The translations under genes and the position numbers were made by a program. A stretch of 64,000 nucleotides of DNA from assembly GCA_004764695.1 (NCBI GenBank), contig SMSO01000037.1:1286247-1350246 (forward strand), given 5' to 3'. This DNA comes from Schizochytrium sp. TIO01. Lineage: Eukaryota; Sar; Bigyra; Thraustochytrida; Thraustochytriidae. Below the pieces are notes generated by a model. That model was not told the DNA's origin. It saw only the letters and a program-made list of their open reading frames with translations, and searched no databases. How positions within the stretch are numbered: position 1 is the stretch's first letter; each line of letters begins with the position of its first letter. This document shows positions 27,475 to 55,737 of the stretch, one piece after another.

Positions 27475-30400
27475 ATGAGGTTAGGCATTCCCTTTCTCGT
27501 TTCCAATTCCCGTTTGGCGCAACTCGTGCGGGAATGCGCGATGGAGGCCGAGATAGGGCACTCCGTGGAGGTCAAGTCGGAGAGCCCAAGGTCCTCGGGC
27601 GCGTCGTCTCCATTGACCTTTGGTGCTGCAATGGATAGTCTCGATGATGGCAACAAGACGGAGTGGCACGATGGCGAGGCTCATACCTCTCAGCGACAAG
27701 AGCTACAACAAGAGCATCTTCATCTTGATAAGAATGATGTGGCTGACCCGAGGGCGCAGGACGTGTCTGCACAGCTAGAGATCCTGGAACCGACACCTTT
27801 AGAGCTCAAGAGCGGAGTGTGGAAGATGGTGGTTCGTGTGATCGCGCTGCGAGGTCTGGCTAAAGACACTCTTGCCAAGCATGTCTTCTGCAAGCTCTCC
27901 TTGAACAACACAATGTATAAAACAGCGACAAGCAAAGTCGTTGAGGATGACCATGGTAAGTAAGAGTTAGGCCTCGATGGGGAAATACAAAGAAATTAAT
28001 CAACCAATACACACGACCAAAAGATCTGATCATCGATACGCTTACATCAAGGTGTGATTCTTCAGTGTTTCGTATGTGGATGCAAGTGCTTGTATATGAA
28101 GCGCCTTTCAGTCTGGTATTCACGTAAAATTGAGAATAATTCTTGCCCGGCCCAGCGCCGGCATCGATGGCATTGGATACGGGTCAATAGCTCGGTACAA
28201 CACCTTTTGGTAGAGTGAGAGAAACACTTTGGGATGGAAAATGGCAGATGATGACTAATGCAGAAGCTTGCGGTTTCTTTGTCTTATATACAATCTTGGT
28301 CGTTGAAAATTTTCGCAACTGTTTGAGGATTGACAGGTCTAGGCGTAGTTACCTTTATAGGTCAAACATACCGGGATTGGCCAATTTGCAGGCCCTCACA
28401 ACTCAGCTTTGATGACCTCTTGGTGGTTCGTGTCAAATTATTGGGCAGCTTCGGTCGGCCCACACCTGCTGGCGTCGTCACGATCTCAGTGCGCTCTGTT
28501 TCAGAGCTGGGAGTACCAGAAAGTCGCGCGTGGTTTCCACTTTCACCCTATGAAAAGATGAAAGAGGCACAAGGCGATATCTGTCTTGGAATCTATTGGA
28601 CAAAAGACCCCGTCGAGGAACTTATGTCTCCACAAGTTTATGAATCTAACTCTTCGCCCGGCGATATTTCCCCAAAACTACCCGTGAGCCCATCTGGACG
28701 ATCGCGAAAGTCTTCCCGGTCTAGCCGAAGTGGGATGGCGTTTCCTATTCCAAGCATGACTTCCCCACCTACTATTTCTAGACTTAAGCACGTGCTTGGC
28801 ATCACGCATAAAACACAAGAGGAGATCATTCGCTCGGGTGCGAGTTCTCAGGGGCTGACTCTCCAAGCAGAAGGTGTCCAAATCGAAGGTGAATGGAGGA
28901 ACGTACCACTGCGTGATATTGACATGGAGGAAGATAAGGCAAGGGACGTGATGGTTTATGAAACAACAGACACCGCCTTTGCAGCTAACAGAACCCGCAA
29001 CCTTGTTATTTCAACGAATGAGGAGGGTCTTGAACAAGATGAGCCCCAGAACAGTGATCACTTTATCCTTAAACCTCGTAGCATGGTTGGCTCAGATGTA
29101 ACCTCACGATCGTCTTTGGAGCTACGAGAAAATCTCGCTGTTCCACCACCGCAGATCGCGGAAAGTCGCCGTCCAGTGTTAATGTTGGAAATTATCGAGG
29201 GCCGGGGTCTCCTTGCAGCAGATGCGAATGGTCTCTCAGATCCTTATTGTATTATAAAGTTCAAGAATGCCAAAAGAAAAACAAAGATCATCTCGCGCAG
29301 CCTTACACCCCATTGGGGAGAGACAATAATCTTCGGTGGAGATGATCATCCGAAGGAGCTTGTATCTTTGGATGATCTTGTTACAATTATCGTTAAAGAT
29401 CATGATATTGTCGGGTTTGATGACGACCTCGGTCGCGTTGACCTCCCTTTGTGGGCAATTGTGTCACACCATCATGGAGAAGATGATGACGAAGATGAAC
29501 TAGATGAGGCTATGACCTATAAGTCTTCTCAGAAGTCAGTTTCACGTCAGCTGGGGACGGTCGAACAATCGGACTCGTCTGATGAAGAGAATAGCGACGA
29601 CGAGAGTCCATCATTGCCAAGCCCTCCCCACCTCGGGCCCAAGGGAAAGAGTGGGCTTAGACTATCGCGGGTGCCAAAGACGGGAAAACAGCCTCATGAA
29701 GACGGTGGCGTTAGCGACGAAGAACTCAGCGGTGATGAAGAAGAGGACAACGTTAGTGATGAGGAAGACATGGATGCTTTTGACACAGGTCGCTTTGATG
29801 TTACTGGCGAACCACTGCAATCGAGTGAGTTTAAACGACCAGAAAGCCCAAGATCTGTGTTATCATCAGGTTCAACAAAGTCCGAGAGGTCACTCGTCTC
29901 ACATCGCTCAACACGGTCTCTTTTCAACCTTAATCCGACGCGGAACAAGGTTGATATGAGTGACACAGGTTCCGCAACACCGCCACGACCGCCGCACGCG
30001 CGTTTTCGTAGGTTTCAATCCATTAATGCTCATGTTGTCAACACCAAACCCAAATGGTACTCATTGCACTGTAGCCCTGGAATGACGACTGTGCGTGGTG
30101 AAATTAAGGTGCGCATTTCCTATTTTGGCGGCACAGCTGATGGCGATACATTGAATGAATTTGCACGGATATCACGTCTTCCAACGCGTGACACCAATAT
30201 AAAGGGATCTGTAAAACACCTGCTTTCGCGGGATTCCCAGTTCGAAGAAAGCTTCGATCAGTGTAACAAGGAGAAACCCTCTCAATACTCCAGTGTCCAA
30301 ACCTTATTGCACATTCGTGTAATTCAGGCAAGAAATATACTTGCTGCTGATGCCAATGGAAAAAGTGACCCTTATGCAATTGTGTCAGTACGAGACTCAT

Positions 30401-33400: not shown

Positions 33401-35880
33401 GAGCTGCATACGACTTATACCGTAATGTCTCTATCGACGAGACTCCATCGAATGCAGATGTAGCCGAAAAGGGGTGGCTTCCAAACTACCAAAAGGAGAA
33501 TGAGCGAAGTGATGCAGAAATTCAACACGTCCTTAAAGAAACTGTGCTTACACCGTTGGAAAAGAAACTACTCCATGACATTATTGCCCACCAAGAAGGA
33601 AACTTATCTCGTGAATGTTCGACCAGTCCTGTGCGTGCTTTCTTAAACCCGAAATGGAATGAACGAATGCGAATTGGGCAGGAATTTGTGATTGATTGTG
33701 GCGATATTGCCGTCCTTACAGTAAAGACAAGTAGCGCCCCGGACCGTCCCAAAGCATCTGGGATGGAAGATGTTGCATATGCTTTTATTCCGCTGAAAGC
33801 ACTAGAAAATGCAGGTAATGACCTCAATCATTGGTTTAAGTTAGAGAATCTTGAAGACGATGAGATATCACACCATCAGCACGCTGAGCAGCAAAGCTTG
33901 CATGCTGATAGTGTAGGTGATATGGGCTTTGATCAGGGACAAGATAGTGCACTCACTCGATGGACGCATGTCGGCGATATACTGCTTTCTGTCTCTCTAC
34001 GAGGGGTTCAGCAAACACCTCGGGATCCCAAGCTTGGTACCGAAGGTCTCACAGGGAGTTGGTCTAAGCGTGCTGCTCCCTTTCCTGCTCAAAAGAAAGT
34101 TGTGCGTCGGGCATCGGAGAATGACGGTATTATAAAGGTGACGACTGGAACAGATCGTGTCTTCTCAGCTGAACCTTGGAGCGGCGTCCAAACAACATTA
34201 GTATTTGATGTGTTTGATGAAGACAATTACACTCATCGTGATTTTATTGGTAGAGCGCGAATCCCCCTCTCCTCTCTAGTTGCAGACGATAGCGCAAATG
34301 AGCAGCCGATTCTCGAAAAATGGGTTCCTTTGGGACTTCGCTTTGACAGCAGCAAGGCAGATCGTCAATTGTGGTCTTGCGCCCAAGGTCGACGCTATCC
34401 TACTTCATCTTCCACCACCTTTTCACGCGCTATAAAAGCTGGATCACGAGCTTCGTCACGAGTAAACCGAAGCTCCTTAACGTCAGGTCTTCTCAAGGCA
34501 CCTCTGACAAGGCTTCGAATGACACTAAATGCTCGAAAGGCTTCAGCGGATAGCGAGGATAGCGTCGAACGGGCGCGGATGAACTCGATGGAGTCCAATA
34601 CCTCTTTGACAGAAAGCGATGACGAGATATCACGTATTGATTCAGGCACTTCGGTAATCGAGAATCGTGAGCCTCAACGAATGACACGTGAAAACACTGA
34701 TTTGAATTTCCAATGGCAACAACGCGGAGCTCCTTTTGGGGAAATTCTTATTCGTGCTCAGCTCATGCTACCTGATCCTGGTGCAGAAGAAGCTTATCAA
34801 GCAGCAGAAGAAGCCAAAAAGGCCGATAAAGGTGGTATCATTGAACAATCACGGGTAGTGTTCAAGAATCTGCAGATTTTTCAAAATTACCTTTTCGGTA
34901 TTAACAATTCCCTTGAGCAATTCCGCAATCTCTTTAACTGGACACACCCCCGCAAAACTCATTTCCTCATGAAGTTGATGCTGGGCCTCTTCCTTTTGCT
35001 CGTTCTCGTACCGTCTCGGTTTATCATTTTGTTTCTTGGAATTTTTCTTTTTACGGAACGCTTTCGGCCGCTGGGAATCTTTGTCATTAAGTTCAAGCAC
35101 ATGGCGGCCCTCGTTCCAACAAATGATGATCTCGTTGAGTTGTACACCAAGGGCCCGTTATTAGGTGCTCTTGGGTATTCAAAGGGTGGCTCTGCAAATG
35201 ATTATCTTCCTGAGAATGAACGTTCTGAAAGCAGCGAGATTTCTAAAATTTCAGGAAGTCGATTCTACCAAGGGATGCGAGATCGTTACCTCGCGTTCGG
35301 TGGTCTACGGAATCAAGTCATGCAAACGAGATCACGTGAGGCGCAGGAAAGTAAGCTCATAATTTCAGAATCTGACTGCAAGGCGTATGGCCACTTACGT
35401 TTACTGCAGCGAGGACGTAGTAAACAGTGGCGCCGCTATTACTTTGCTATTGCTCACCACCAGCTCATGTTTTGGATAGACAAAGATGACATGCTAGTGC
35501 GGGTGGCACAAGGTGGCTTTGGGGAACTTCTCGAAGTATCTTCTGTCCTACCGAACTCTCGCGATGCCCAGTTCCTCGCGCGGAAGGGTATTGTTGGAGG
35601 AACTTTGGATTGTACATTTGTTATTGAGCACCCAGAGCGCTACAAGCTTCGTTCAGACGACTTACAAGATTCTAGTGCACAAGAGAGCAGCGAAGATGAC
35701 ATACTTTCTACCACAAGTAGAGCGCTTTCAGAACTCACCCAAAATCAACTTGGCAAGCGTATTCGAACGTATCTTGTCGCAAATAACATTGCTAAAAAGG
35801 AATACTGGATTCAAAATCTACAACGTTATTGTCTCCAGAACCCAAACATGACTAAATCTAAGATCGCTGGGATGTTATAA
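27475..35880 (+). CDS. Giant multi-C2 membrane tether with two membrane hairpins and PH-like C-terminus (MCTP-like)
   Basis: Exons 27475-27955 and 28337-35880 give 2,674 residues; ATG 27541 is an alternative start (2,652). C2 domains are visible near 27820-28600 (split by the intron), 29170-29460, 30300-30590, 30880-31230, 31460-31740 (degenerate), 31920-32240 (degenerate), 32720-32940 and a fragment at 34190-34340. Those at 29.2 and 30.3 kb keep the Ca2+ site (DANGLSDPY/DHDIVGFDDD; DANGKSDPY/DHDRITRDDD), and the one at 32.7 kb keeps DDNGKSDP; the others lack key Asp. Hydrophobic hairpins at about 32540-32640 and 34960-35070 are each preceded by a helix and NWKHAP or NWTHPRK, like the C-terminal region of MCTP proteins. 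The end (35370-35850) has a PH-like pattern (GHLRLLQRGRSKQWRRYYFA ... EYWIQNLQRYC). Probable role: Ca2+- and phosphoinositide-dependent ER membrane contact. There is no SMP, DysF or FerA motif, so it is not an extended synaptotagmin or ferlin. Confidence 0.9.
27956..28336 (+). other. Intron of the C2-protein gene
   Basis: 381 nt, donor CATG|GTAAGTAAG, acceptor TTGACAG|GTC. The phase is exact (G + GT makes Gly), and the total coding length becomes a multiple of three. A second acceptor candidate, TTGCAG near 28390, would be out of phase. Confidence 0.8.
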
Positions 35881-36065: not shown

Positions 36066-39000
36066 TCACTTGACTGTTGAAGTTGAAGCCGAATTTTTAA
36101 ATAAGGCTTGGTGAAGATTGGCAGCACTGTTTCGCAGATATGTTCGTTCCATATCCTCACCTCCCAGTTCACGGAGCTTCTCCAACATCATGAATTTGTC
36201 CATCTCCTGGTTTGCAAGAAGTAAGAGCAAACGAGCGTTATCTTCACGCAGCGCACGACTTGCGCTTTCAGATGTATCCTTGGCGACAATGTCTTCTAGA
36301 GATTTAGATTCGTGCGAACGACGTTTCAGAAGCTCTCGCTTTGATTCAAGTTCTGAATTTGAACTTAAGCTTTCATCAAGGATCTGAGCCGCCATCTCAT
36401 ACTCTGCAAAAGCTGCGGCAAGATCAGCAGCGGTGATAAGCCAATTTTCATAATCTACACCATGGACACCAATTGTTTGGGCTGCCTTGGCTAGCAGGGG
36501 TAAACTGGCGATCGCAGAGGAAGGTCCCTCATCACGTATTCCATCTAAAGCTCCTCGGAGAAATGAAATACCAACTCTATTTGTCACAATTGCATCAACG
36601 TCGCTCTCAATGACATGTTCAGGAGCTGACTTGAGTGCGCGTAGCTCTTCCTTCGCACTCTGCAGCTGTGCACGAAGTTCTTCATTTGATGAGTTGTTAT
36701 GGTCCACAACTTCAGCTTGAGCTTTGCTCAATTCATCAGAAATGACGTGCTGTTGTTGTTGTTGTTGCTGCTGCTGCTGCGTTTTCCGCGCATCCTCAAG
36801 CTCCTGGGACTGCTTAGCGCATTGATTGCGAAGCTGCTGCAGCTCATTTTGAAGGTTGTCCTTGTCTTGCTGTAGGTTGTCAATAGTTCTCTGCATATTT
36901 TTAATCTCTTGCGCATCAAGGACACCTTCGCCATTCGTGCCATCAAGGTTATGAGCTTTGACTACCTTGCGCAGCTGGCCAATTTCTTTATCTTGCATGC
37001 GAATTATTTCTTTGTACTGCTCCCCAACTCGAACTAGATTCTCGTACTTTTCATGCAATATAGTGGGGTCCTCTGGACTCATCGGTTGTGCGCTATTAGA
37101 ACTCCCGGAACCTGTTTTTGTATATAGATTTATGATAGTTTCTTGAATGAGTGAGGCATTACGCTGCACTTGGTCAAAGAATCGTTTATCGTAACGCGGG
37201 ATCTGCAGAAGATCAATTTCCGTAGCAGTAGGGTGATTATGCAATCGCTGTTCGTGTTGTTGCCTTTGCTTTCGAGCACGCTTCGATAAACCAGCAAGTT
37301 TAAGCTCAGGCGACCGTTCTAGCCTAGAGATTCTATCAGAAAAGACCTCAAAACCAATACGACCCGAAATGAGATTGAGTACATCACTCCGAATCTTCGT
37401 GTTTTCAACAGCACAAAGACTTAGGCCAACGCAGAGAGCGGCAAGCCCTTCAATATCAATATCTGCCTCCTTCTGCTTCCCATTTACAGCCGCACTTGAC
37501 CGAGACAACGAGCTACCAGCAACAGCATCAAAAAGAACAAGGCTCGTTGACGACCCAAGTAGCTTTTCGGCAACTATTGCGCATCCATCAATCCAAAGAG
37601 CAAAGAGACGAAACAGCGCCACAATGCATGTCTTCAATCTAGGCCTTTGCAATTGACCATACGAACGTAGAGACTGTGCTAGGTCTCGCACATACAAGTC
37701 GAAAAATTCGCCCTCTTCCAAATCGCACCCTGAGGTGTTGGAGATTTGATCTGTTCTTGACTGGGATGCGGCGGCTGCCATCAAAGGAGACAAGGTTCGC
37801 TTAAAGCCGGCTCGTGGAGCTCCTGCAGGAATACGAAGTGCAAGTTCTTGGCATGTTGAATTATCCCGAATCAGCGTTTCAAGTAAGCGTCCCGCTCGAC
37901 CGTGTACAACGCTGGCTTCAAACTCCTGGTTTTCCTTGTCTTGCAAATTGAGCGGGTCTGAATCACTCGAAGCAGCCTGCGCAGCAGTTGCTGAAGATAT
38001 TGTAAGCACTGTGGCATCCGAAAGGGTTTCAGCAAGAAGTCGCCCAGCCGGGGGTGCAATCAGAGATGTAAACCGTTCATCTGTGACCGACTCAGGCGGT
38101 GGAGTAAGCGCGTGACCAACAACACTGATTTGAACAGTTGGATTGTTATAAAGTAGGCATTCAAAAAAATAGCTAGCTGCAGCTTTTTCTTCAACAGTTG
38201 CAGCGTGGAGAGCTAAGAGAGTGGCTCCACAAGCCACAGTTGCCCGGGTTGTAAGACGTTCCTCTTTCGGGAACTCCTGCGTTTCATGATTTCTTGCAGC
38301 TTCGTGAAGTTGAAGCGCAATAGCGGCTGCTGATGATAAAGCGCTGTTGACTGGCGCAACGACCTGCATGTGTAATATTTGAGCAGCGACAGCCTCATTC
38401 TCGCAAACAATATCACCCAGAAGGTAAAATGCTTGCTGTCGAAGTTCGCCCCATGTAACCATAGAGTCTAAGTCGTCTATTGAGTCGCTCCCGAAACTAT
38501 TGTATCGTAGCCGTTCAGGTATGTCTGTCGGAAGACCAACTGCAATCTGAGCTAGCGCTTCAACAACTCCAAGGCAGCTGCCCACCGTCGCTTGCATGTC
38601 ACGAAGCTGAGCAACGTGCCTACGACGAATCTCATCCTCATCTGGTGGTGGTGGTTGACCTTTTTTAGTGTCACCAGAACCACCTTTGGTATTTTTCCCA
38701 GCACTATCCTGTTGTATTTGCTGTTGTTGACGGCGATGTCGCTGAAGTACAGATGCAAAAACGTCATCAGGCCTAGATGTAGGGAACACATAATCGCCGT
38801 CAGGGTCAAACCAAGGCTGGTCTAGAATAGGCTCGGGGCAAAGACCTGATACAAGGTTTGCAAGAAGCTCCATAGCCTGGCGCATATAGTGTAATCTTAC
38901 TGGACTACAATCCGTATTAATCTCGCCAGTACTGTGTGGCGTTGCAGGCTCATCCTCGGGCATGCCAAAGCCATTTGTCTCGCCATCAATGATGGCTTCA

Positions 39001-39911
39001 TGATCTGATGCGTGAGGGTTGCTCACCCTTGGCAGCGCGAGAACACCTTCCAGGCGCGAAACGAAACCACTTTGCGCGAACAGCTTTTGTGTCAAAGGAT
39101 TGCCTCGAAGAACCCAGTTCATGATTGTAAGGCAATCAACAACAATCATATCATTATCATACTGTTGCTCAATATCAATAATTTGGAACAGTTTCGCAAA
39201 GCCGTCCCTAAATGCGACGAAGTTCTGCAGTTGTTCATTATTCTCTGTCAGTGATCTCAGCAGTAGGAGCATTTCATTTCGCACAACCTCTTCACTCGCG
39301 TCCAGAACGTCAACTAATCTTTGCATTCCCGCAGGTGTTGTCTCTACTGCCTTCTCCATCTGTTGCGGGCGATTGTTTCTCAATGTCGTCAGCAGCTGAA
39401 TCGTCGCTAGCCGAGTCCACTGCTCTGGCACTACAAGGGCCTCCAAGAGGCTCTCAAACCATGCTTTGTTCTCCAAAATTCGGTCTGTATTTTCCAACGG
39501 CGCCTGCAACCATGTAAAATTTACAGCACCATTCCCGCTGAGTGTACCAGGTGTGTGTTCAGACCCTAAGATTGTATCTCCATCGGCTGGGGTCTGTGTT
39601 TCACAGGCCTCGTTGAGAACCTCCAAGATCGTTTGCTTGACCTCCTCCTCGAGACCGTCCTCCATAACGAGCTCGAAGAAAGCCTCGAAATTTGCTCCAA
39701 GAGCATCTTTACCGACCCCTTGGCTACCTCCAGAGGCTGAGGCGCTCAAGCTTGCTGTTGCAACTTGGCGGGACGGACCTCCGAAGGCCAAGTCCTTGAG
39801 AACATTTGCCGCGTCGATCTTTTCAGCTTCCGTCGTCGCGAGGCGAATGCTGCGTACTGCCGCGGCAACCTTGGCAGCGCCGTCTTCGGCCCTCACACCG
39901 AATAAATCCAT
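36066..39911 (-). CDS. USO1: p115/Uso1-type vesicle tethering protein
   Basis: About 1,281 residues from ATG 39911 (MDLFGVRAED); the frame continues upstream only to a TTG. p115/Uso1 tethers COPII/COPI vesicles to cis-Golgi membranes and assists SNARE assembly. The N-terminal ~800 residues form the armadillo-like head, with family-typical stretches such as RLATIQLLTTLRNNRP, RLVDVLDASEEVVRNEMLLL and VDCLTIMNWVLRGNPL. A coiled-coil segment of about 150 residues follows (MQRTIDNLQQDKDNLQNEL), then an interrupted tail. A run of about ten Gln (36750-36779) splits the coil. The C-terminus is Ser/Thr/Lys and lacks the acidic tail that in animal p115 binds GM130 and giantin. A proline-rich, KKGQPPPPDEDE-type loop sits inside the head. 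The gene converges on the C2-protein gene, 186 nt away. Confidence 0.93.
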   Translation of the reverse strand: MDLFGVRAEDGAAKVAAAVRSIRLATTEAEKIDAANVLKDLAFGGPSRQVATASLSASASGGSQGVGKDALGANFEAFFELVMEDGLEEEVKQTILEVLNEACETQTPADGDTILGSEHTPGTLSGNGAVNFTWLQAPLENTDRILENKAWFESLLEALVVPEQWTRLATIQLLTTLRNNRPQQMEKAVETTPAGMQRLVDVLDASEEVVRNEMLLLLRSLTENNEQLQNFVAFRDGFAKLFQIIDIEQQYDNDMIVVDCLTIMNWVLRGNPLTQKLFAQSGFVSRLEGVLALPRVSNPHASDHEAIIDGETNGFGMPEDEPATPHSTGEINTDCSPVRLHYMRQAMELLANLVSGLCPEPILDQPWFDPDGDYVFPTSRPDDVFASVLQRHRRQQQQIQQDSAGKNTKGGSGDTKKGQPPPPDEDEIRRRHVAQLRDMQATVGSCLGVVEALAQIAVGLPTDIPERLRYNSFGSDSIDDLDSMVTWGELRQQAFYLLGDIVCENEAVAAQILHMQVVAPVNSALSSAAAIALQLHEAARNHETQEFPKEERLTTRATVACGATLLALHAATVEEKAAASYFFECLLYNNPTVQISVVGHALTPPPESVTDERFTSLIAPPAGRLLAETLSDATVLTISSATAAQAASSDSDPLNLQDKENQEFEASVVHGRAGRLLETLIRDNSTCQELALRIPAGAPRAGFKRTLSPLMAAAASQSRTDQISNTSGCDLEEGEFFDLYVRDLAQSLRSYGQLQRPRLKTCIVALFRLFALWIDGCAIVAEKLLGSSTSLVLFDAVAGSSLSRSSAAVNGKQKEADIDIEGLAALCVGLSLCAVENTKIRSDVLNLISGRIGFEVFSDRISRLERSPELKLAGLSKRARKQRQQHEQRLHNHPTATEIDLLQIPRYDKRFFDQVQRNASLIQETIINLYTKTGSGSSNSAQPMSPEDPTILHEKYENLVRVGEQYKEIIRMQDKEIGQLRKVVKAHNLDGTNGEGVLDAQEIKNMQRTIDNLQQDKDNLQNELQQLRNQCAKQSQELEDARKTQQQQQQQQQQHVISDELSKAQAEVVDHNNSSNEELRAQLQSAKEELRALKSAPEHVIESDVDAIVTNRVGISFLRGALDGIRDEGPSSAIASLPLLAKAAQTIGVHGVDYENWLITAADLAAAFAEYEMAAQILDESLSSNSELESKRELLKRRSHESKSLEDIVAKDTSESASRALREDNARLLLLLANQEMDKFMMLEKLRELGGEDMERTYLRNSAANLHQALFKNSASTSTVK
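36750..36779 (-). repeat. In-frame CAG/CAA (polyGln) tract in p115 gene
   Basis: Ten consecutive Gln codons, mixed CAA and CAG, inside the coiled-coil part of the p115-like gene. Mixed codons suggest moderate stability. Confidence 0.9.
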
Positions 39912-40646
39912 AGCGACTGGAAAATTTGCAACTTGGTTTTCAGATTTGTGCAAAAAGTTGACTCCACACCGCAGATGCCCTCGTGGTAGTTATTGAAATC
40001 TTTCACATTGAACTACATTCACTTTGAAAAGAGGTATTAATACGCTGAGTTGTATTGAATAAAATGTATATTAATATGCTGACTATTCTGTGTAGGTTAG
40101 TATAGGAAGGGAAAATCTCTAGGCCATACATGGACATGGGCCGATTATGCGCAGGTTTTGATAGAAATTATAATGTCATTAAAAGATATTTGGCGAAACT
40201 ACGGATATGACTTGTATAGTAAGGCACTGAATTAGTCCAAACAAGTACCTAGCTTAAGGGTTGCAATAGTCTATCGCATTTGCAGAAAATCTGGCAATGT
40301 AAAGGAAAACATAGCGTCTCCAGTACGAAAAGTCTCCCATCTTGGTGATACTTATCAAAAGGAATCAATTTGGTCCTCATTCTTTAAGGCATGTCATTAC
40401 ATGTTAAATGAATCCTTGCATGTTACAAGTTTAAGGAAAAATCAGAAAATAAACAGAGTAACAATTAAGTTGGACAGTTACGAGCAGAACGACTTTGATT
40501 CTAGTATCGATAAATGAAATTGAGGAAGAATATCAGTCTGAGTGAAACCAGTAAAAATAAGAAAGAAGAATCACAAAGAGAAGTCGGTCAGGCAATCAAT
40601 ATTGAAGAGTTGCTTTGGTGAAAAGAATCTACATATAGCGCACTGC
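39912..40646. other. Intergenic, p115 5' flank and TrpRS 3' flank
   Basis: 735 nt of AT-rich sequence between two minus-strand genes. No ORF, RNA gene or repeat recognised. Confidence 0.45.
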
Positions 40647-41837
40647 TTAGTAGTTCTCAGGAAAACGGCCAATACCCAAGACCTGGTGAACGTCCTTCAT
40701 GGTATGTGAAGCCACCTCGGCGGCACGGTCGGCACCATCATCAAGAACCTTAAAGATGGCGGATTTGTCGTTCATGTGGCGCTTAATCTCATCTCCAATT
40801 GGGCAGATAACGTCAATGAGAGCCTCTGCGACGTCTGACTTGAGCTCAGAGCACAAACGACCGTGATAGTTCATTAGCTCGTCCTCAAGTGTTGTGCCGC
40901 GGACTCCGGCCAGGATAGTCAAGAGGTTAATCACAGCTGGGCGATCACTGCGACGGTCGTTGCGCGAAATAGATCCCATGTTATCGGTGACAGCACGGCG
41001 GATTTTGGTGGAAATCTCATCCTTAGTGTCAGTAAGATTGATGCGCGAGTTAGCCACAGGGTCAGATTTACTCATCTTCGACATGGGATTGCGGAGACTC
41101 ATGATGCGAGCAGCCCCACTCTCGGGATAGATGGCATCTGGGAGTCTAAAAAGTTGAAAGTCAGCGCGATCGTTAAGGCGAGCAGCCATGTCACGCGTGA
41201 ATTCGAGGTGCTGCATTTGGTCATCACCAACGGGTACGTGCGTAGGGTTGTACAGAAGAATGTCCGCTGCCATGAGAGATGGGTACGTGTACAGACCAGC
41301 CGATGCGGCATCGCGCTTGCTGCCAGCCTTCTCCTTGAACTGTGTCATACGGTTGAGCCTTCCAATGGATGAATAGCACTGCATGATCCAGCCCAGCTCG
41401 GAGTGAGCTGCGACGCGAGACTGCTGGAAGAGCACGCTCTTCTGGGGGTCAAGGCCACACGCAAGAAATGAAGCGGCCAATTCAAGAGATTTTTGCCTCA
41501 AAGTACCAGGCTCTTGAGGCACAGTCATTGCGTGCAAATCTGCAATCATGAAGAGCACCTGGCCGTCGGTCTTTGAAGCTCTTGCGGCATAGGAAAGCTC
41601 GCCATTAGGCTCCTGCATGACCTCGCGAAGACCATTCTCGTAGTCCTCAATGGCGTGGAGCTTATCCTCTTCATGAAGAGCATAACCATCGACAGAAAGC
41701 ACGCTGTCCACACGAGAGGAGCTCGTCACGGTCTTTTGGAGCCAAATCCAGCTCCTCAAAGCGCCCAAGTAGTTACCTAGTGTCGGCACGCCACTTGGTT
41801 GAATACCAGACAGCACCTGACGAACCACCGACGCCAT
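40647..41837 (-). CDS. Tryptophanyl-tRNA synthetase, bacterial/organellar type
   Basis: A 396-residue class I synthetase charging tRNA-Trp with tryptophan. Seen: LSGIQPSGVPTLGNYLGAL (residues 9-27, with the HIGH-equivalent PTLGNYLG), MIADLHAMTV, the Gly/Asp-rich VPVGDDQMQHLEFTRD and the KMSKSDP loop. This is the short bacterial/mitochondrial form, not the cytosolic eukaryotic one. Between the first helix (SWIWLQK) and the DGQVLFMIADLHA strand there are about 55 residues, where bacterial enzymes have roughly ten; this looks like a lineage insertion. ATG 41837 is preceded in frame by a TGA two codons upstream, so no cleavable presequence is visible unless an upstream exon exists. An organellar role is inferred from the type. 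Confidence 0.96.
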   Translation of the reverse strand: MASVVRQVLSGIQPSGVPTLGNYLGALRSWIWLQKTVTSSSRVDSVLSVDGYALHEEDKLHAIEDYENGLREVMQEPNGELSYAARASKTDGQVLFMIADLHAMTVPQEPGTLRQKSLELAASFLACGLDPQKSVLFQQSRVAAHSELGWIMQCYSSIGRLNRMTQFKEKAGSKRDAASAGLYTYPSLMAADILLYNPTHVPVGDDQMQHLEFTRDMAARLNDRADFQLFRLPDAIYPESGAARIMSLRNPMSKMSKSDPVANSRINLTDTKDEISTKIRRAVTDNMGSISRNDRRSDRPAVINLLTILAGVRGTTLEDELMNYHGRLCSELKSDVAEALIDVICPIGDEIKRHMNDKSAIFKVLDDGADRAAEVASHTMKDVHQVLGIGRFPENY

Positions 41838-42770: not shown

Positions 42771-43772
42771 TCATGAAAGGTTCGGTCTATATAGATGAAG
42801 TGGAAAACTCTCGGTAAGAATGGTGTCGTCACCCAATGTAATGAGGAGATTCAACTCGAATTCAACTTGAAATTGCCCTGATTTTACCGAGGCACATGTA
42901 TAGTGTCGAGGTAAGAGCATATATAAAGGTATGGACAAGGCGTGGCACACATCTCCGTCTGCCACCTGAGTACTTTGAATTTCAGTTGCCTCTCGCGCAA
43001 GGCCTTCGGAATATTTGATACTCTCAATTCGAATGAGTTGCAGATCAATAGAACGGAGAGGTACTTCGGATTCTTCTACCAGAATCTCTCCCGTCAATGG
43101 CTGGTCAACAGGGCATACTAGTTGGTCAAGATGCCCAGTGATACGAAAGTGCGGAATGCGCGCGCGCTGAGCTGGGCTAATTTCTTCGAGAGTATCCGGG
43201 TTAATATTAAAGGGTGTGGGTTGTGGTTGCTGGCCTAGGGAGAGGTACTCAGCTTCTCCGGCACCTGGAATTTCTACAAATATTTCGGTATGGTCCGTAA
43301 GTGTGGATGAAAGAAGACCACGTGTCGCCTCCACCTTTAGCACATAAGCGGTTGTTATGTACACCCCGTGATAAGTCTCGTGCATTTCAAAAGTGCGTGA
43401 AGATGAAGAATGAGATAACAATGGTAGCACTTCAGGGCTTCCCAAGGGTGGATTCTGATGGCTTGGTAAAACAATTTCGAATGGGATGTCTGTGATACCT
43501 TGCTGTACACGTTTACCCTTTGCCAGAATGGTCTCCTTTTCAAGAAATACATGGGGCTTAATAGAGCTGTAGAATGCCTCTAATAGACTGATGCTCTGAG
43601 CACTGAGTTGGAGGTTGCTTGCTCCATGGAGCAGTATACGCACTGTGCTCAAATCTATACTTGTATGGTGTGTGCGAATACGAACAATACCTTTGACAGT
43701 ACTGCCTGGTACAAAGGTCTTGTCGCGCTTATCTAGAAGAAGCTCTGCTGAAGAATATGTAATGGGATCCAT
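42771..43772 (-). CDS. VPS26C: VPS26C (DSCR3), arrestin-fold subunit of Retriever
   Basis: 333 residues from ATG 43772 (MDPITYSS); the frame is open further upstream, but only to a TTG. With VPS35L and VPS29 this protein forms Retriever, which recycles cargo from endosomes with the CCC and WASH complexes. Two arrestin-like beta-sandwiches are visible. In the first, SNLQLSAQSISLLEAFYSSIKP, DIPFEIVLP and YETYHGV-like HETYHGVYITTAYVLKVEATRGLL. In the second, PHFRITGHLDQLVCPVDQPLTGEILVEESEVPLRSIDLQLIRIES, EIQSTQVADGDVC, IPLYMLLPR and FELNLLITL. These match DSCR3 rather than VPS26A/B, especially the ATEIQ..Q.ADGDVC stretch. Human DSCR3 has 297 residues; the extra length is a Ser-rich loop near residue 125 and a longer interdomain linker. 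Confidence 0.95.
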   Translation of the reverse strand: MDPITYSSAELLLDKRDKTFVPGSTVKGIVRIRTHHTSIDLSTVRILLHGASNLQLSAQSISLLEAFYSSIKPHVFLEKETILAKGKRVQQGITDIPFEIVLPSHQNPPLGSPEVLPLLSHSSSSRTFEMHETYHGVYITTAYVLKVEATRGLLSSTLTDHTEIFVEIPGAGEAEYLSLGQQPQPTPFNINPDTLEEISPAQRARIPHFRITGHLDQLVCPVDQPLTGEILVEESEVPLRSIDLQLIRIESIKYSEGLAREATEIQSTQVADGDVCHALSIPLYMLLPRHYTCASVKSGQFQVEFELNLLITLGDDTILTESFPLHLYRPNLS

Positions 43773-46700
43773 TTTGTGATGAGTAAACTTAAAACTAACG
43801 TGTGAAAATCCTTCACCCTGACTAACCAAATCTTGGAGGAAACCCCGCGTTGAACCAGGAAACCTCAAGTACTATTTTCCCTTGGCCATGCGTCTATTAC
43901 AAACTAAGATTGTACCAGTCAAGGCAGAGACAACTATGCCTCAGTAGTTCTGCTCTCTATTTTCGTTCTGAGCCAGGGTTTCGTCTGGCTGTGTGATTCA
44001 GGGGATCGAATCGTTGCTAACTTTCCTTGCCTAGATGCTCTTTGTCGAGCCCTACGAGACTACACTTGCTTCCTTATTTTACAAAGATGTATCTTTGGAC
44101 ACAAACCATTAGATTTCGCACGGTACGAAGTCCGCCTTCGTGCTTCTATGACACAGATTACTGGTTCAGCCGAAGGCCCGCAAACAAGAGAATCCTTCTT
44201 TGAAAACCTGTTTTGGCTTTGTGGACTTGTGTACCTACTGATATATTGGATAAAGTTAGGGTGACTGGTAGCGAATATACTAGAATCACATAATCATCAC
44301 TAAGGAGCAAATATATAGGAATCATATTACTTATGCAATGCAAAACTATGCATTATCAAAAAACTGAGTTAGTTTTTGTATATTGATGCCTTGCCTTAAT
44401 ATATGAGCCTTGGATTGTCTTGACTTGAAAAGTCTTAGATTTTTATTAAGGAAAAAATTGAACGGAATGTAGATCTGCTGTGGAAATTCATGAGAATTGA
44501 AGCATGCGCGCCAAAGCTAGCTATGACTATGACGAAGAGAAGCAGCCATTTCAAAGCGAGCTTAGATCATTATCATTTTGTATAGGGCATGCAGCTGATG
44601 TCCAAACTTTTACGAATGCCATTCTTTACGGGGTTGTAATATTTATAAATTTGAAGGTTAGAATCCTAGTGCGCTATGGCAATTCGAATGAAAAGAATCT
44701 ACGAGCATTTGTACGAGCTAAAAGCATTCACTTTTCGCGTATTCACAAATGAAATCGTCAAAATGATATACCATGATTCTATAAATTCCTGCAGGAGACT
44801 AGGTCAATCGGATACTTTTTAAACATGAAAAACTTCACTGTATGAAATATGGAGTCTTAGTAGTATTATACCGATGATGTTTCAAATTTTACAAAGGTAA
44901 AAATGTTTCTCTCGCCCAGAAGAGGCGCATCCGAGTTTTCAAGTTGCCTGCTTAACATGCAATCGTTTCAGAGGTCATTTTGAAAACTTGGTGCTTGGCC
45001 CGAGCTGCAGTCAGTGATAAAAAAAATTGAATCTGAGTTCATAGGATAGCAGTATGAATGGTTCGTGCATGAGGTGCAATTTTTTTTATTACAAAGGCAG
45101 ATCTCTTACAGATATTTTAGATGAAATCAAGAAACTCTAGTTGTGATAATTATCGAGAATCCTTAACCACATCTTGAGTCACACGGATGCCCGGTTATTG
45201 ACGAGCAGCAGGCGAGTTTTCGCAGTGAAAATGTTACTTTAAAGCTGAATTTATAAGCAGATTGTTCAAAGTCATTTAGATATTATAAGCCTTGGTCCAA
45301 CCGCTGACTCTTATTCATCGGTTACTAAAGCAGATCCCTGGCTCTGTAAGGCAATGTTTTCCTTCTCAACGGTGCCCAAGCAACGTTTATTTGCTAGCTG
45401 ATCTGTCTGCGGTTGACCTTTAGTGATCTGTATTTATTCAAACTAAGTATCAAACATTTCATTCATTTAAAGATAAGTATTATTAAATATATATTTGAGC
45501 TTTCGTCGTCTCATGATACGGGTCGCAGGGAGTCTTCGTGTCCAACAAGGTCAAAGCCGGCTATACACCCAGAATACTTCTTCTCGAGGCAGGACTTAGT
45601 ATTCGGCATTTCTGGGGAGCAAATCTGGAGTCTGGAGACCGTACCAAGCCATCTTGGCACCAATAAAGCGAGGGTTTCTCTCCTGATCATCCTCATTGCC
45701 GAGCATTGTTATTCAGTGGTAACATAGCTAGATTGAGTGCTGGGGCTGCTGTCCAACAAAGGTATCTGCATTTCCAGTGTTGTTGAATAATAATCGCTCA
45801 GCAATAATTGCTTATAGGCGAAGGTGAATTGTCTCTAATTTGGTCATTGCAGCACAGCATCATATCCTTCGAGGCTGGTTGATCGCTCTTTAATTTAATA
45901 ATTCGGGCTCTCTCTTTGGATTTGGACGAATCATTCATTAAGCTTCTATCGTAACGCTAGCTGTAGAAACAGCGCACTTCAATTGAGTTTCATTGAGTTC
46001 CTAACATAAAGCATGGCTTGGCCGGCGAGAAGTCGGGCGTCAGTATACTGCTTGCTATACAGACTGAGTGCAGAAAAGACTCTTCTCCTCACGCACGAGC
46101 TCGGCAGCGACAAACTTGAAACGCCCTGAAGTGCAATAAGGGAGCCTCCTAAGTCGTGAGCAAAGAAGAAAGTTCACGGCCAGTTGAAGTTGCAGAAATG
46201 ACAGCCAATCTTTTTTTGACAGGTTGATTTCAACTTGTTAGTTTTCTGTCGTCCAATATGACAAAGCGAAATTGGCGGCATAAGAGGGGAAAAACTATCA
46301 CGCACTAACGTTTACTAAGACCCCCCAATCCCAGGTCCCGTGAAATTCCACATTCAGCCTTCCGGACCAAACTATGCACGAGGGTGTATCTTGCGAAACC
46401 ATGCTTACTGTGGCAGAAGGTTGGCAGGACAGTGGAAACTTTGGCACAAGTGAGCTATCGTGCTTCTCCACAACTAGGTTATACAGAAAATAATGAACTA
46501 TACTCTGTACTCAAGTGGGGACAAAGCGAGGTGAGGATGGAAGAAAGAAAAGGAAACTAATTAGGTAACTTCGAGTTGGTAGTACCTCTACTCTTCTGCG
46601 TACACATACATACCTATATGCAAAGAATGTAAAACCATGGGAAAATAGCGAGTTTGACGCTAATTGGATTCTTGCGAATCGACAATTTCATCACGAAGAA

Positions 46701-49516: not shown

Positions 49517-52444
49517 ATGGAGGCGACGTTTCAAGAGAAGTTCAAAGCCAGGTACCAGCGCAACAACAAGCGTAGCGGGCAGAAGAATATCAGATGCTTC
49601 CCTTCATGCACGCCTCGAGCGCACTCATCTAGTGGCTTTTGTGGACAGCAGGTGACTGTGACGGTGACAGGAGTGGACCCAAACTTGCCTTCATCGTGCA
49701 TCTACAGAGCATGGGGCGAGTTTGTGCAGTGTGGAGCGGATGTACCCATGCAACCTGGGCAGAAGATGCCTCTGAGGAATGCGGACATGAAAGAACGGAG
49801 CCGCGCAAACCCTTTAAGGGATTGGGTGCGCGGAGAGGTCTCCGAGGCAGGCCCAGACAAGATCACGGTCATGGTTAACAGGAGTCTGCTGGGGTGGCAC
49901 TACGGGTGGGTATCGAGCAAGCACACCTGTGATGCAATGCACTGCTTCAAGGTTCACCTGTTCGTGCTCGATCAACCCCGTGAAGAACTTTCATATGTAG
50001 GATCTGTGGAGTCACCAAGCTTTCAACTGTTTTCAAGACGTAGACAAGCCATGATGATGGAAGCTCGAGAGGCGGTGAAAACAGAGCCAAAAGCGAACTC
50101 GGAAAAGCGGGACGCTGATCGGGCAGCCCTTGGGTCTGTGATTCTACCACCGCCCAAGAAACGGCTCAACGTGGACTCCGCTATGCAAATTCGCATGCAG
50201 CGTAACCTCTGTCTTGACAGGCTGGTGCGGCTCATGTTGGTGCGAGGAGGATCCGGCACACGAAGCATGTATGATACAGAGATTGCGGGTGCCACTCTAT
50301 TCCATGCGGAGAACGGAATCGGAGGCACGAAGAATAGCATCAAGGCTGAAAGTGCGGGTGCATCAGCAAATAAGAAAACCGGCAATAAGCGGGGCACGAA
50401 CAGTAACACTAAAGCAACTGGAGAGAATGAAAAAAGCAACCCCAATATTGACAATGATTCTAGATCTTCTCTGCAGCAACAGCAGCAGCAGCAACAACAA
50501 CAACAACGCATGGTAGCACCTGTACCTCCAAGAACAGTCATGATTAAACAAGAGGAGCCACCTATCAAGAGCGAGCACCTCCTTGCAGTAGGCCCAAGCG
50601 CATCTTCTGCTCTGGCAACAACCACCTCAGTAATGAACCAGGAAGACCCTTTTGGCGTCGAGTGGTCGGATCTTGATTTTGCTCCTTTTGAATCCTCTAG
50701 TGGGTCCCCTTTCATGGGACTTGGTGGTGATATCCGCGTAGGAGGAAACACGATGCAGGAACAGGAGTTTGACCGCCTTATTGAAGAAGCTCTCTTTGAC
50801 CCACAGATGATGAATGAAGATGACCCCCAACAGGAGACTAAGGCGCGATCCAGGACTGAGTCCGAACCGTCATCCACTATTGATTTTGAGGAAAATGATG
50901 CTTCGTCAAGCAGAGCAAGATCACAACGAAACAAGTCTGATAATGCGGATGATGATGCATCGATGACAGGTAGTACGCCCAAAGCAGGCGTCTCCGGAGA
51001 AGACTCATCTGAGACGACCAAAAAAAGCGGTGTACCTGCTGAGCTTGCTCAAGCTGAATGGGATTCAGGATGCACCTTTACGCGCAAGTTGGAATTCATC
51101 GTCCGGACGCATGGTTCAGAAGCTACTCAACAAAAGGCAGATCATATTATTGACGTTCTGAAGAAGCTACCAGAACGAATGGTAGCTCATAGTACCAACC
51201 GCCCTGACTTTTTGGCCTTCTTTGCGCGCTGGCGCTCCCAGGAAGGTATTCGTCTCTTACGCGAAGAATTTTCGCGGGGAGAAAACGCTACAGCTAATGA
51301 AGAGGACAATATTATGACAAGCTTTGTTCGTGATGAGGACCTCACCGCACAAAACTCATCTTCGACCATTAGCCCGATGCGAAGTATTTATGCTGAAATG
51401 CGCATCATTTATCGACGTGTGATTCTTGATGCACTGACAAGTTTGGGCGGTGACCCTGACGACTTTGAGGAGACCATGGAGTTGTGTGCAAAATATGGTC
51501 TCTTGTTTGTTGACCCGTACTACCCGCCTTCAAAGCGCGTTGCCGCAATGACCCACCTGGAGCTATATAATTCGCTGGACAAGTTCCGTGATCAAGATTT
51601 CGGTAGCTGCGCGGGTGAATTTCGGAATGAGGAACAACGAAATGCCTGGGTGAATGCATATTGGACTGTACGTAAACGCTCATTTCGGCGTCATTTTGTG
51701 AAGGCTGTCTTGAACGAACACGTCGGCTCCAAGCTCCCAGTAGAGGGGCGCACTGTGCCTCCTGAATTTGACGTTTCTGGAACGTGGGTGCAGACTACCA
51801 CGCGTGATGATGCTCGTGAAGCTGCAGCTTGGGGATTACGTGTAGGTGTTGGTCTTGGTGAACTCTCTGCTCGCCTCTTTGAAAATATGTGGAAGCGTCT
51901 GACTTTAAGAATTAATACTGCAGGGCTCCACTTACAGGGTGAGCGTGTGCTTCTCGCTAACCCTGCAAAACTCTTTCTCCTCGATAAAGTTCCTCGCAAA
52001 TATACTGTTTCAAACCCGCTTCCAATGGCTACCTTTGCCGTGGAGCGTACCTATGTTGCATGGCTCGGCTATGAAGACTCTAATGCCTATTTATATCTTG
52101 TTTTCGGAGGTCGAACGCGCAACGCAAACTTTGAAGAGTACTCAAAGCAAGCCAGATTTATTAACGACGATGAAATTCGCCAAGAAGCGGAGCACGTTCC
52201 TAGATATACAGAAATGCGTATTACTAAACGGTTTCGCGTAGCTGAGGACCACGAAACCATGACCATGGATCACAAGATCCATCTCTTTGATGATGCATCT
52301 GCTCCTCATTGGGAGGATACAGACACGATTGCTAGTCTTTTCAAACCTGATCAAAAATCATGTGTCGTGTCTCTGTGTACCAAATATATCAAGGTTTCTG
52401 ATCAAGGTATTGAGGAGGTTCTTGAGCTTTTGGGAGGAAATTAG
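49517..52444 (+). CDS. Paralogue A of an unrecognised Cys/His-rich, regulator-like family
   Basis: 975 residues from ATG 49517; function not recognised. Residues 5-177 form a domain shared with paralogue B: a basic FK.RYQRNNK..GQKN.RC.P.C start, GFCG, FGEF/WGEF..CG, then GWHYGW...KH.CD..HCF and a closing YVGSV.SP.FQ..SRRRQ. Conserved Cys27, Cys31, Cys42, Cys72, Cys138, Cys143 with His136 and His142 could bind metal. The middle is disordered: PPPKKR (a possible nuclear signal), an 11-Gln run (50474-50506), and an acidic-aromatic stretch DPFGVEWSDLDFAPFE resembling activation domains. The C-terminal half shares DPYYPPS.R.AA..H..LY.SLD.F..QD.GS..G.F..E and a beta-rich GTW... domain with B. A transcription regulator is a reasonable inference, not a demonstrated one. 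Confidence 0.82.
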   Translation: MEATFQEKFKARYQRNNKRSGQKNIRCFPSCTPRAHSSSGFCGQQVTVTVTGVDPNLPSSCIYRAWGEFVQCGADVPMQPGQKMPLRNADMKERSRANPLRDWVRGEVSEAGPDKITVMVNRSLLGWHYGWVSSKHTCDAMHCFKVHLFVLDQPREELSYVGSVESPSFQLFSRRRQAMMMEAREAVKTEPKANSEKRDADRAALGSVILPPPKKRLNVDSAMQIRMQRNLCLDRLVRLMLVRGGSGTRSMYDTEIAGATLFHAENGIGGTKNSIKAESAGASANKKTGNKRGTNSNTKATGENEKSNPNIDNDSRSSLQQQQQQQQQQQRMVAPVPPRTVMIKQEEPPIKSEHLLAVGPSASSALATTTSVMNQEDPFGVEWSDLDFAPFESSSGSPFMGLGGDIRVGGNTMQEQEFDRLIEEALFDPQMMNEDDPQQETKARSRTESEPSSTIDFEENDASSSRARSQRNKSDNADDDASMTGSTPKAGVSGEDSSETTKKSGVPAELAQAEWDSGCTFTRKLEFIVRTHGSEATQQKADHIIDVLKKLPERMVAHSTNRPDFLAFFARWRSQEGIRLLREEFSRGENATANEEDNIMTSFVRDEDLTAQNSSSTISPMRSIYAEMRIIYRRVILDALTSLGGDPDDFEETMELCAKYGLLFVDPYYPPSKRVAAMTHLELYNSLDKFRDQDFGSCAGEFRNEEQRNAWVNAYWTVRKRSFRRHFVKAVLNEHVGSKLPVEGRTVPPEFDVSGTWVQTTTRDDAREAAAWGLRVGVGLGELSARLFENMWKRLTLRINTAGLHLQGERVLLANPAKLFLLDKVPRKYTVSNPLPMATFAVERTYVAWLGYEDSNAYLYLVFGGRTRNANFEEYSKQARFINDDEIRQEAEHVPRYTEMRITKRFRVAEDHETMTMDHKIHLFDDASAPHWEDTDTIASLFKPDQKSCVVSLCTKYIKVSDQGIEEVLELLGGN
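50474..50506 (+). repeat. In-frame CAG/CAA (polyGln) tract in paralogue A
   Basis: Eleven Gln codons, mixed CAG/CAA, in the disordered middle of the protein. Absent from paralogue B, which has an Asn/Ser-rich stretch at a similar place. Confidence 0.95.
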
Positions 52445-53033
52445 GTTAGGACTTTGTTGATATATATATGCATTCTGCTTGAGAAGTTTTTTTCGAGTTT
52501 ACTCGTGATGTTGGATAAATTCGTTCTGCCTTCATAGCTCCTACATTGGTACAAGCGTGTCAAGCACTACAGCAAGAATTGTGAAGCTAGCTTTTGCATA
52601 GCTTGTTTGTTTCCTAAAAGTCATATCTTCTTTTTTTAATTAAAATTTTATTTTTTGAAGGAAAAAAAACTTACCAATCCTTTTTTTTTATCAAAGGCTT
52701 TTGCATATGCAGAACAGGATTTAATTCTATTATGTCATGAGGTCTTTTTCTGTATTATTATATTCTTTTTAAGGGAAAAGGGGGGGAGTAAATGCGATTT
52801 CCTAGCTAGCTAGATTGGGTACCCTATTGATAAGTTTACAAGGTCCTAAATTGCTCTTGAATTTCGGCAGTTAGGGAGGTATTGAATACAGAAAAATGGA
52901 TAAGATACTATAAAATACGAAGCAAGTAATACTATCTTTTTTATTTTAAATAAAAAAGTACAATGAAATGAATTTCCTACTAAGCGACAATTGAAGGAAG
53001 CCACTCGAATGAGGAAATCTCTAGCCGGAAATA
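52445..53033. other. Convergent 3' flanks of paralogues A and B
   Basis: 589 nt, strongly AT-rich with poly(T) and poly(A) runs (52625-52700, 52925-52960). No gene. Confidence 0.5.
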
Positions 53034-55737
53034 TTATAATAGGTCCAAAATCATGTCAGTATCGGTTTGATTAAGGTAGCATCGCATAAACCGATGGCGA
53101 AGTTTCATACCAGTAAACTTCACGTCACATTCCTGATTGAGTGTTGCCAATTCAGTTGTATCGTTCATACGAGGGGTAACCGCGGCACGAGGGAAAATAT
53201 GATACCAATCTTCCATCGTCAAATGCTGACGACTGGGTGAAATTAAAAACTTTTTGTGCACGCGCACCTGTGGCACATCGCCAGGTTTCACATGCTTGCG
53301 GAAAAATAAGGAAAGCTTTTGGGCAGCTTCAGTATTGGGCTCTCCATCACGTCTACGAATAGTATCGCAGGCTAACTCTGAAACAGCATCAGAGAAAAGT
53401 GGACCACCAATTACCACATTGATGCAATGGGTGCCATCTGACTCTACCGAAAGCCATCCCACTATCATTTTATCTTGCGAAAGTGGTTGAACACCAGCAT
53501 ACCCAACAACCATTGGCATAGGGGGTCGCCAGCAGTGGGGCTTTCCTTTGAGGTTTGCGACTAAGCGTGGGTCAGCGAGAAGCATCTGTTGTCCTGAGGA
53601 CGTGAAAGTTTCATCAGTGATTGTAACTTCAATTTTGGAAAGCATTGTCGTGAAAACTCGGTTGTAGAAACCGCCCATATTTACACCTGAGCATACGGAG
53701 AGCAATGCACCAAGAGCCTCATTACCTTGTTTGCACATATCTTCCTCAATAGGACCTACGAGAATCCAGGTGCCGTTAATATCCCATCCGGGACTGACAG
53801 GTGCTTCCCGATCGCGCTCAGAAGAAAGGGCACGTGTACGTTGGTCTGTTACGATACGATCGCAAACGATGCGACGCATAATGCCTCGACGTACGACCAT
53901 GAGATCCTTTGCATACTGTCTTTGCTGCTCGTCATTGATAAACTTTCCCTGGCGCGATCCATAATCTTGCTTCTCAAAATTATCCAAAGACCCATAGAGC
54001 TGCATATGGATGAAAGCAGCTGCACGAGGCGAAGGCGGGTAGTATGGGTCTGGGGTTGCCACACCAAAACGTGCTGCGAGGTCCATAGGTTCAATAAAAG
54101 GAGAAAGGCGTTGGCCTGTTTTTGCAATTGCCGCACTCATGATACGACGAAACTGATGACGAAGCATTCCAAAAATACTTGTCTCATGGTCTGGATCGTT
54201 AAGCTTGGTCGGATCCCAAGTACGGTCCTCACGTTCCGGGGTCCAAGCGAAATTAATTTCACGCTCACGTTCAATCTGAGCTTTGAGTCGCTTCAAACCT
54301 TCGGGGCTTGAAAAGCCGCTAACAACACTGTTAAAAGCACTATTATTCTTAGAGAGACGAATTACACAGTCGGAGATCTTCTCAATACCTTCAAGGATCA
54401 TGTCGATACGTAAGGTGTGGTTTGCAAAACTTGACTCGCGCAAAAGGACCTCGCGCAAATGTTGCATGCCTTCACCAATATCTTTGGTCTTCTTGGCATT
54501 TGCAGATCTTGATGACCCTGACGCGCCACCATTAATGTTCTTATCACTCGAACCGGAATCACTTGCGTCAGCGTCAGTACTATTCCTTTGGTTCCCGTTG
54601 CTCATATTCATTGAGGAGGGCTCCTTATCCCACATATGAGGGTCTACAAAATCAGGTCCATTCAACGCTTCGCCGACGTCCATCTCTAGGCCAAGCATAC
54701 CTGAGTGACTTAGATCTTCGCTTGTAACATTTGACGTGCGATCCGAGTCGTCCCATGTTACATCCGACCCGCTAGTATACTGGAAAATAAAGTAGGTTAG
54801 GCGATCAAGAGTACGATTCTTCATGTACTCCGAAGTAAATGACTCCATCAAAGTATCAAGTACTTTTGAATCCATGGCAACAGAGGCAAGAGCTCGGAGA
54901 GGGACCGAGGTTGCATTATTATTACTGCTGCTAATTGCATTTGAACTATGTTCACTTGCGTTTGGGGCATCATGGGGTGTCGAGGAGCCCGAGTTTACGC
55001 CTGATCCTAACTTTGGAGGGCAAGGGGACATCTGGTTCTGGGCTACCAGCAACAGAACCAAAAGTGCTCATTGGGGTCATGCGAGCCTGCTTTGAGGCAA
55101 GCACAGGTGTGGGTGATTGAAGCCCGGCCTGAGTTACTGTTCGTTTCGAAGTAACGGATGCAGTGTCGCATTGCGAAGCCCCGTCCTTATTGACACCACG
55201 CTGCCGCCTTCGACTGTAAACCTGAAAGACAGGGGAAGATACCGAGCCAACGTAGATTAGTTGGTCGCTATCATTCTTGAGCTTAAAAATGTACGCGCGG
55301 AAGCAGTGGTAGCTATCGCAGGAATGCTTGTTTGCGCGCCAGCCATAATGCCAACCTCCAAGCTGCCGATTAAAGGAAACGGATACTTCAGTTCCATCTT
55401 GCAGGCGAACGTCACCGCTCAGCCATGGGAGCTTGGGCAATGAAGCAGTACGCTCCTTTGATTGTGCTTCCTCGAGAGGAATTGTACCGTTCGGCCTCAT
55501 GAGTTCCTTTGTACCACACACAATGAACTCTCCAAAAGACCGGTACTCCCAGCCGGCTTCCAAAGGTGGAAGATCATGAATGGTACATGTGAGCGCAGTA
55601 CCACAGAAGCCACTGTCGCGATGACCTCCTTTTGAACAAATTGGGTAGCATCGCAAGTTCTTTTGTCCGCCAAATTTGTTGTTGCGTTGGTAGCGCTCTT
55701 TAAATTGATCTTTATTATGCCATGTTGCGCGAAGCAT
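53034..55737 (-). CDS. Paralogue B of the same unrecognised family, with a frame change or short intron
   Basis: Begins at ATG 55737 (MLRATWHNKDQFKERYQRNNK) and ends at 53034. The first frame carries the Cys/His N-terminal domain (RCYPIC, GFCG, GWHYGW, KHSCDSYHCF, YVGSVSSPVFQVYSRRRQ). The second, from about 55031 on, carries an Asn/Ser-rich linker, a helical segment, DPYYPPSPRAAAFIHMQLYGSLD and the beta-rich C-terminal domain beginning WDINGTW. Two ways to join them: an intron from 55137 to 55032 (donor ACA|GTAACT, acceptor AACCAG|ATG, phase 0 on both sides, 106 nt), giving about 865 residues, or a one-base error between 54970 and 55070. B lacks the polyGln and acidic-aromatic region of A. 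The two genes are tail to tail and clearly diverged outside the shared domains. Confidence 0.8.
55032..55137 (-). other. Candidate short intron in paralogue B
   Basis: GTAACT...CCAG, 106 nt, phase 0 at both ends and connecting the two long frames. The donor is weaker than the GTAAGT of the two clear introns in this window, so an indel remains possible. Confidence 0.45.

Follow-up and report, generated by a model that had tools for sequence, protein, structure and literature searches.

In a 64,000-nucleotide stretch of the genome of Schizochytrium sp. TIO01 (the window; positions 1,286,247-1,350,246 of contig SMSO01000037.1, here C36) two genes, A and B, converge with 589 bp between their stop codons. 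The genome comprises 64.06 Mb in 37 contigs; GC content is about 45% and the reading frames are long and intron-poor. Both genes encode a conserved N-terminal domain (N domain) that is basic at both ends and holds a Cys/His loop, joined through a variable linker to a variable tail, which in these two consists of a helical region and a C-terminal domain that we call the GTW domain. We found that A and B belong to a family of 19 genes with conserved columns and a two-ended architecture, and we consider it fairly probable that this is a family of transcription regulators.

Gene A is a single open reading frame (ORF) whose longest Q run is 11 residues. Gene B is divided between two minus-strand ORFs that overlap by 92 bases and match A in the same order (Table 1). 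Since B is split over two frames, either an intron is needed or a frameshift is present at about 55.05-54.86 kb, and the break (window 55061-54863, minus strand) could come from an error in the assembly, a genuine frameshift or a short intron. A scan of donors between 55190 and 54966, with introns of 30-399 nt running from GT or GC to AG, gave 182 donor/acceptor pairs that could join the frames without a stop, none of them proven. By BLASTP the N domains of A and B are 43% identical over 209 amino acids (E 7e-55) and the C halves 27% identical over 515 amino acids (E 2e-42), values that exclude chance. The original prediction for this locus, a tail-to-tail paralogue pair, was borne out, the convergent genes being homologous at both ends, and all the motifs it quoted (RC.P.C, GFCG, GWHYGW, KH.CD..HCF, SRRRQ, DPYYPPS, LY.SLD and GTW) were found in both A and B. 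Its statement that the middle regions differ fully fits the linker, about residues 190-520 of A, which has no clear counterpart in B, but not for residues of about 520-745, which align with B.

Table 1. Features of genes A and B and other Pfam-matched ORFs, in window coordinates
Feature	Position	Strand	Description or basis
Gene A	49517..52444	+	single 975-amino-acid ORF: N domain, low-complexity poly-Q linker, helical region, C-terminal GTW domain
A N domain, residues 6-183, predicted p53-like beta sandwich	49532..50065	+	family HMM, alignment, model, fold comparison
A putative metal loop C27-x3-C31-x4-H36-x5-C42, fifth candidate H142	49595..49642	+	invariant/near-invariant columns
A region common to B and L041, helical in low-confidence model, contains DPYYPPS...LY.SLD block	51077..51748	+	homology, alignment, model
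A DPYYPPS...LYNSLD block	51512..51580	+	translation, alignment
A C-terminal GTW domain	51749..52441	+	iterated HMM, alignment
Intergenic stretch between facing stop codons of A and B	52445..53033	.	ORF positions
B upstream ORF, 255 amino acids, carries N domain	54970..55737	-	ORF call, BLASTP to A
B N domain, predicted p53-like beta sandwich and basic C-terminal helix	55183..55713	-	family HMM, alignment, model
B putative metal loop C30-x3-C34-x4-H39-x5-C45, fifth candidate H144	55603..55650	-	invariant/near-invariant columns
B downstream ORF, 675 amino acids: linker, helical region, C-terminal GTW domain	53034..55061	-	ORF call, homology to A
B DPYYPPS...LYGSLD block	53982..54050	-	translation, alignment
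B C-terminal GTW domain	53037..53804	-	iterated HMM, alignment
Alkaline ceramidase	2497-4671		Pfam match
2516-amino-acid multi-C2-domain protein	28330-35880		Pfam match
Uso1/p115-like	36066-39953		Pfam match
Class I tRNA synthetase (W/Y)	40647-41837		Pfam match
Vps26	42771-43868		Pfam match

Searching the genome with the N domain of B (E up to 10) returned 25 matches, and 24 of these lay within 19 ORFs; the remaining one (C31:1766730, E 0.38) was dropped. With three further members as queries (E up to 1) there were 19, 24 and 15 matches, and each of these 58 lay in one of the same 19 ORFs. Since the further searches led to no other ORF, the family looks complete at this sensitivity. The N domain was located in all 19 by a hidden Markov model (HMM) iterated from the family. 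The members are dispersed over ten contigs, occupy long open frames and are very divergent, the most similar pair being 45% identical. One local cluster of three lies within 27 kb and consists of A, B and L041 (C36:1359455-1362346; L041:2956-5847), a close paralogue with an N domain, helical region and GTW domain situated about 17.5 kb past B, outside the window. A tree grouped these three with support of 89/90, which is below the tool's mark, and with long branches. The tree, column counts and alignment were made with 18 members and without L047, whose domain has a long insert. Thus A and B are paralogues as predicted, but they are only 2 of 19 members and not a pair on their own.

Eleven columns were invariant in the 18 aligned members: Y8, R10, K18, R21, C22, P24, C26, C37, W121, Y123 and H136 (B-domain numbering). 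H31 was kept in 16 and displaced by one residue in the other two, and the three arginines of the basic end were kept in 12, 15 and 16. Conservation is highest in a basic stretch and the Cys/His loop directly behind it. The original prediction regarded the whole Cys/His set as metal-ligand-like. We found that of this set only C22, C26, C37 and H136 were invariant; C132 (kept in 10/18), H130 (11/18) and C137 (6/18) were variable. The column counts thus favour C22, C26, H31 and C37 as the likely, putative metal set with H136 as a fifth candidate, and not the whole of KH.CD..HCF. The domain thus carries a conserved set of four candidate Cys/His ligands, as expected of a zinc-bound domain. In the model of the B domain the predicted local distance difference test score (pLDDT) of the metal loop was below 50.

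That model (model 1; pLDDT 67.4, predicted template modelling score 0.66) has seven main and two short strands, a helix at residues 80-85 and a C-terminal helix at 168-176. A second model, with A as the query, has the same order of elements, and its ten-residue blocks score 62-87 except at 11-40 and 121-140. Of the 50 structural neighbours that VIA listed for model 1, 10 were velvet, NFAT or LSF. In model 2 the N domain drew 28 rows, of which 20 were T-box, velvet or, in two cases, probable STAT, with alignments of 104-139 residues; families were assigned by the listed titles. T-box accounted for 15 rows among the structural neighbours. Foldseek placed the LSF DNA-binding domain first for model 2 (E 0.024). 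Runt, CSL, p53 and Ndt80 were not listed by VIA, an absence that does not exclude them. The structural alignments with T-box, Rel/NFAT, LSF/Grainyhead and STAT had 5-15% sequence identity. Weakly but repeatedly, these comparisons suggest that the shared N domain resembles the DNA-gripping fold of p53-type gene switches. With moderate confidence we predict that its roughly 170 residues form a p53-like beta sandwich of the immunoglobulin type.

The original prediction knew of no named family with this order of motifs. Consistent with this, no Pfam model recognised the N domain (in A, B and the 18 member domains) or the C-terminal domain. In A, B and the 18 domains there was no velvet, T-box, Rel or NDT80/PhoG match, the first three having been searched to E 10 with HMMER filters that drop most matches above about 0.1. 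The library scans also returned no strong HMM match to a known non-regulatory family, the kind of match that would have refuted the original prediction. Genome-wide searches with PF11754, PF00907 and PF05224 were empty, but the controls were equally silent. Against PDB chains the family profile found no such factor, its one match being ribosomal S7 (E 0.9); PDB matches to NikD, echovirus VP2, TFB2 and S7, all with E 0.9 or worse, were not used. The strings KNLRCFP, GWHYGW, YQRNNK and RCFPSC did not occur in the open-access papers searched.

Velvet proteins (VosA, VelB, VeA; PF11754) were neighbours of both models. As in velvet, the N domain is predicted to form a sandwich of some 170 residues that has a helix inside it and another at the C-terminus, and its last strand and basic end (F-x-V-Y/S...K/R) are similar. 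PMC3876986 describes VosA as a DNA binder with a seven-stranded sandwich and helices between strands 2 and 3 and at the C-terminus. PMC10845976 reports velvet outside fungi in a few species, and the word stramenopile is absent from its main text. In contrast to velvet, the family has an invariant C-x3-C...H...C loop, WxY and a C-terminal GTW domain. Near the N-terminus of VelB and VeA, and as a variant in VosA, stands an RxCG..DRRPxDPPPxxxL block. This block is missing from the 18 aligned domains, in which RCFPxC...H...GFCG stands in its place. By these tests the family falls outside velvet, T-box, Rel and Ndt80, as the library models are silent and it lacks the velvet DRRPxDPPP block. Profile-profile comparison with three velvet chains gave Prob 0.9% and E 0.059, with 5 of 200 column shuffles as high and the reversed profile lower; a velvet profile that included one typed row gave Prob 0.6% and E 0.097. 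The best alignment sets SPVFQVYSRRRQRG opposite velvet SERFTVSPPKSFPG and brings the last two strands and the basic end into register. We take this likeness between sequence profiles as a hint only.

With T-box, Rel/NFAT, LSF/Grainyhead and STAT proteins the N domain shares the predicted fold class. Unlike them, the family has no Pfam match to any of these groups, and no ankyrin, SH2 or other usual partner domain was found in the Pfam scans. In the core domain of p53 a single zinc, bound by three Cys and a His, lies next to the DNA-binding loops, and the basic helix at the end enters the groove. This is the arrangement that we propose for the N domain; however, p53 was absent from the listed structural rows, shows no sequence match and differs in ligand spacing.

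At the other end of the proteins, A, B and L041 can be aligned over their C halves. The GTW part was extended by iterated HMM to L048, L043, L051, L045 and L044, which gives 8 of the 19 members (round one: L048, E 1.6e-9; L043, E 0.0015); beyond the first rounds the E-values are inflated, since the model by then includes the newly added members. L049 and L057 looked GTW-like by eye and were included in the GTW alignment. Genome searches with the C-terminal part of L051 and of L045 gave five matches each, all in N-domain genes and none outside the family, which indicates that the two ends travel together. When the 675-amino-acid frame of B was the query, five of six matches were in members and one (E 4.3) lay elsewhere. 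The C domain matched nothing in the domain libraries or among PDB sequences. It had been described as beta-rich, which is not established since the pLDDT there was mostly below 60. Likenesses to CapZ-alpha and Ups1 (22 of 50 VIA rows, also by Foldseek) were discarded because they rest on the low-confidence C-terminal part of model 2, and a lipid-binding role for the GTW domain would be a guess. A BFVD search gave no match with E below 0.001. A helical bundle in mid-protein is plausible. Matches before the GTW domain to DUF3150 (E 5e-4, L041:4426-4734) and BART (E 0.05, L048:4225-4443) hint at such a bundle, but were below the cut-offs and not used. The same applies to stray Pfam matches that were single-member and/or below the cut-off: Macoilin (E 8.9), DUF899 (E 0.0076), MCR_alpha (E 0.006), CIA30, Glyco_transf_9 and NAP.

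No GTW domain was found in nine members, several of which have Q/S/N-rich tails instead. In L042, L052, L054 and L055, Q makes up 10.7-14.5% and S 13.5-18.7% outside the domain, and there is no recognisable C-terminal domain. L050 (L050:2872-6429; C30:4611871-4615428), which also lacks GTW, has a strong hydrophobic segment at residues 961-979 (LAIAFGIVMTFMFIGSALV at residue 961; Kyte-Doolittle 2.36) and is a possible membrane-tethered regulator. The next highest segment downstream of a first Met scored 1.67 and lies within the GTW domain of L041. By eye, L050 has a second, weaker hydrophobic segment. Behind the N domain, 9 of the 19 members, not including A and B, carry a K[KR]x[KR] motif that resembles a nuclear signal; over 1000 shuffles the mean was 1.3 members, and 9 was never reached. 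The stretch searched was only 70 amino acids in the first ORF of B and 19 in L052.

We propose that the N domain would grip DNA as a p53-like sandwich. Two basic elements may contact the DNA: the invariant residues that precede the first strands (YxR...K..R) and, in the C-terminal helix, the RRR-Q segment. The C-x3-C...H...C loop and the invariant His further on would together bind a single structural zinc and so order the N-terminal DNA-contact loop. The low-complexity linker leads through the helical region to the GTW domain, which might dimerise, bind a partner or sense a ligand and in this way set when the regulator acts. The suggestion that these proteins bind DNA and control transcription is supported in part. 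We infer the fold class with moderate confidence; that the domain binds DNA and a metal is likewise inferred, and what the C-terminal domain does is inferred only weakly.

A different reading is that the N domain binds proteins or lipids as an Ig-like or C2-like sandwich, so that A and B would be cytosolic adaptors or signalling scaffolds whose metal loop is structural and which bind no DNA. However, the longest alignments of the N domain were with the DNA-binding domains of T-box, NFAT, LSF and velvet proteins, and invariant or near-invariant basic residues lie at both of its ends. In addition, the nuclear-signal-like motifs and Q/S-rich stretches suit regulators better, and we regard an adaptor role as rather unlikely. 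Alternatively, C-x3-C...H...C could form a small zinc module with which the domain binds RNA or a component of chromatin, the family being RNA-processing or chromatin factors and not promoter-specific regulators. Its most conserved segment is of the type seen in zinc-knuckle RNA binders, but conservation runs on to the late invariant WxY and H, the whole is modelled as one sandwich, and no zinc-finger, zinc-knuckle or RNA-binding family was matched by Pfam in A, B or the 18 domains. We judge this distinctly unlikely. That the family consists of domesticated mobile-element or viral proteins spread in the genome without a common regulatory role would suit 19 dispersed copies with three close together, but their divergence, their long open frames, the lack of a transposase, integrase or viral family match in any member and the scans of viral and prokaryote contigs make it most improbable. 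In those scans no relative was confirmed among 5 viral stretches (family-alignment query), 3 viral stretches (L043-domain query) or 123 prokaryote stretches (query A's domain). The GWHYGW DNA pattern occurred in at least 120 viral stretches; among the 120 scanned with the family HMM the sole match, L103, was borderline (E 0.086) and taken as chance.

If A and B are members of a regulator family, then the domain libraries lack a whole family that comprises 19 genes in this eukaryotic microbe, and these genes would be concrete targets for the study of gene regulation in a group grown for oils. While the family may be new, its fold class is probably a known one. The best-known p53-like DNA-binding folds are those of animals, fungi and amoebae (T-box, Rel, p53, STAT, velvet, Ndt80), and a separate expanded branch in a thraustochytrid would mean that the fold has been taken up or retained more widely. 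A bolder version, which we think unlikely, is a large lineage-own branch of p53-like factors outside the seven usual families, in which a low-complexity linker couples a zinc-ordered DNA-binding sandwich to a dedicated GTW sensor and, in L050, to a membrane anchor. The cell would then have a set of ligand- or membrane-gated gene switches with a layout comparable to animal nuclear receptors and tethered factors. The family would be more novel if the C-terminal domain is a sensor.

Ten other ORFs of the window, covering part of its long ORFs, were scanned with Pfam. Five gave no match, and the five that matched, which nothing ties to A and B, are listed in Table 1.
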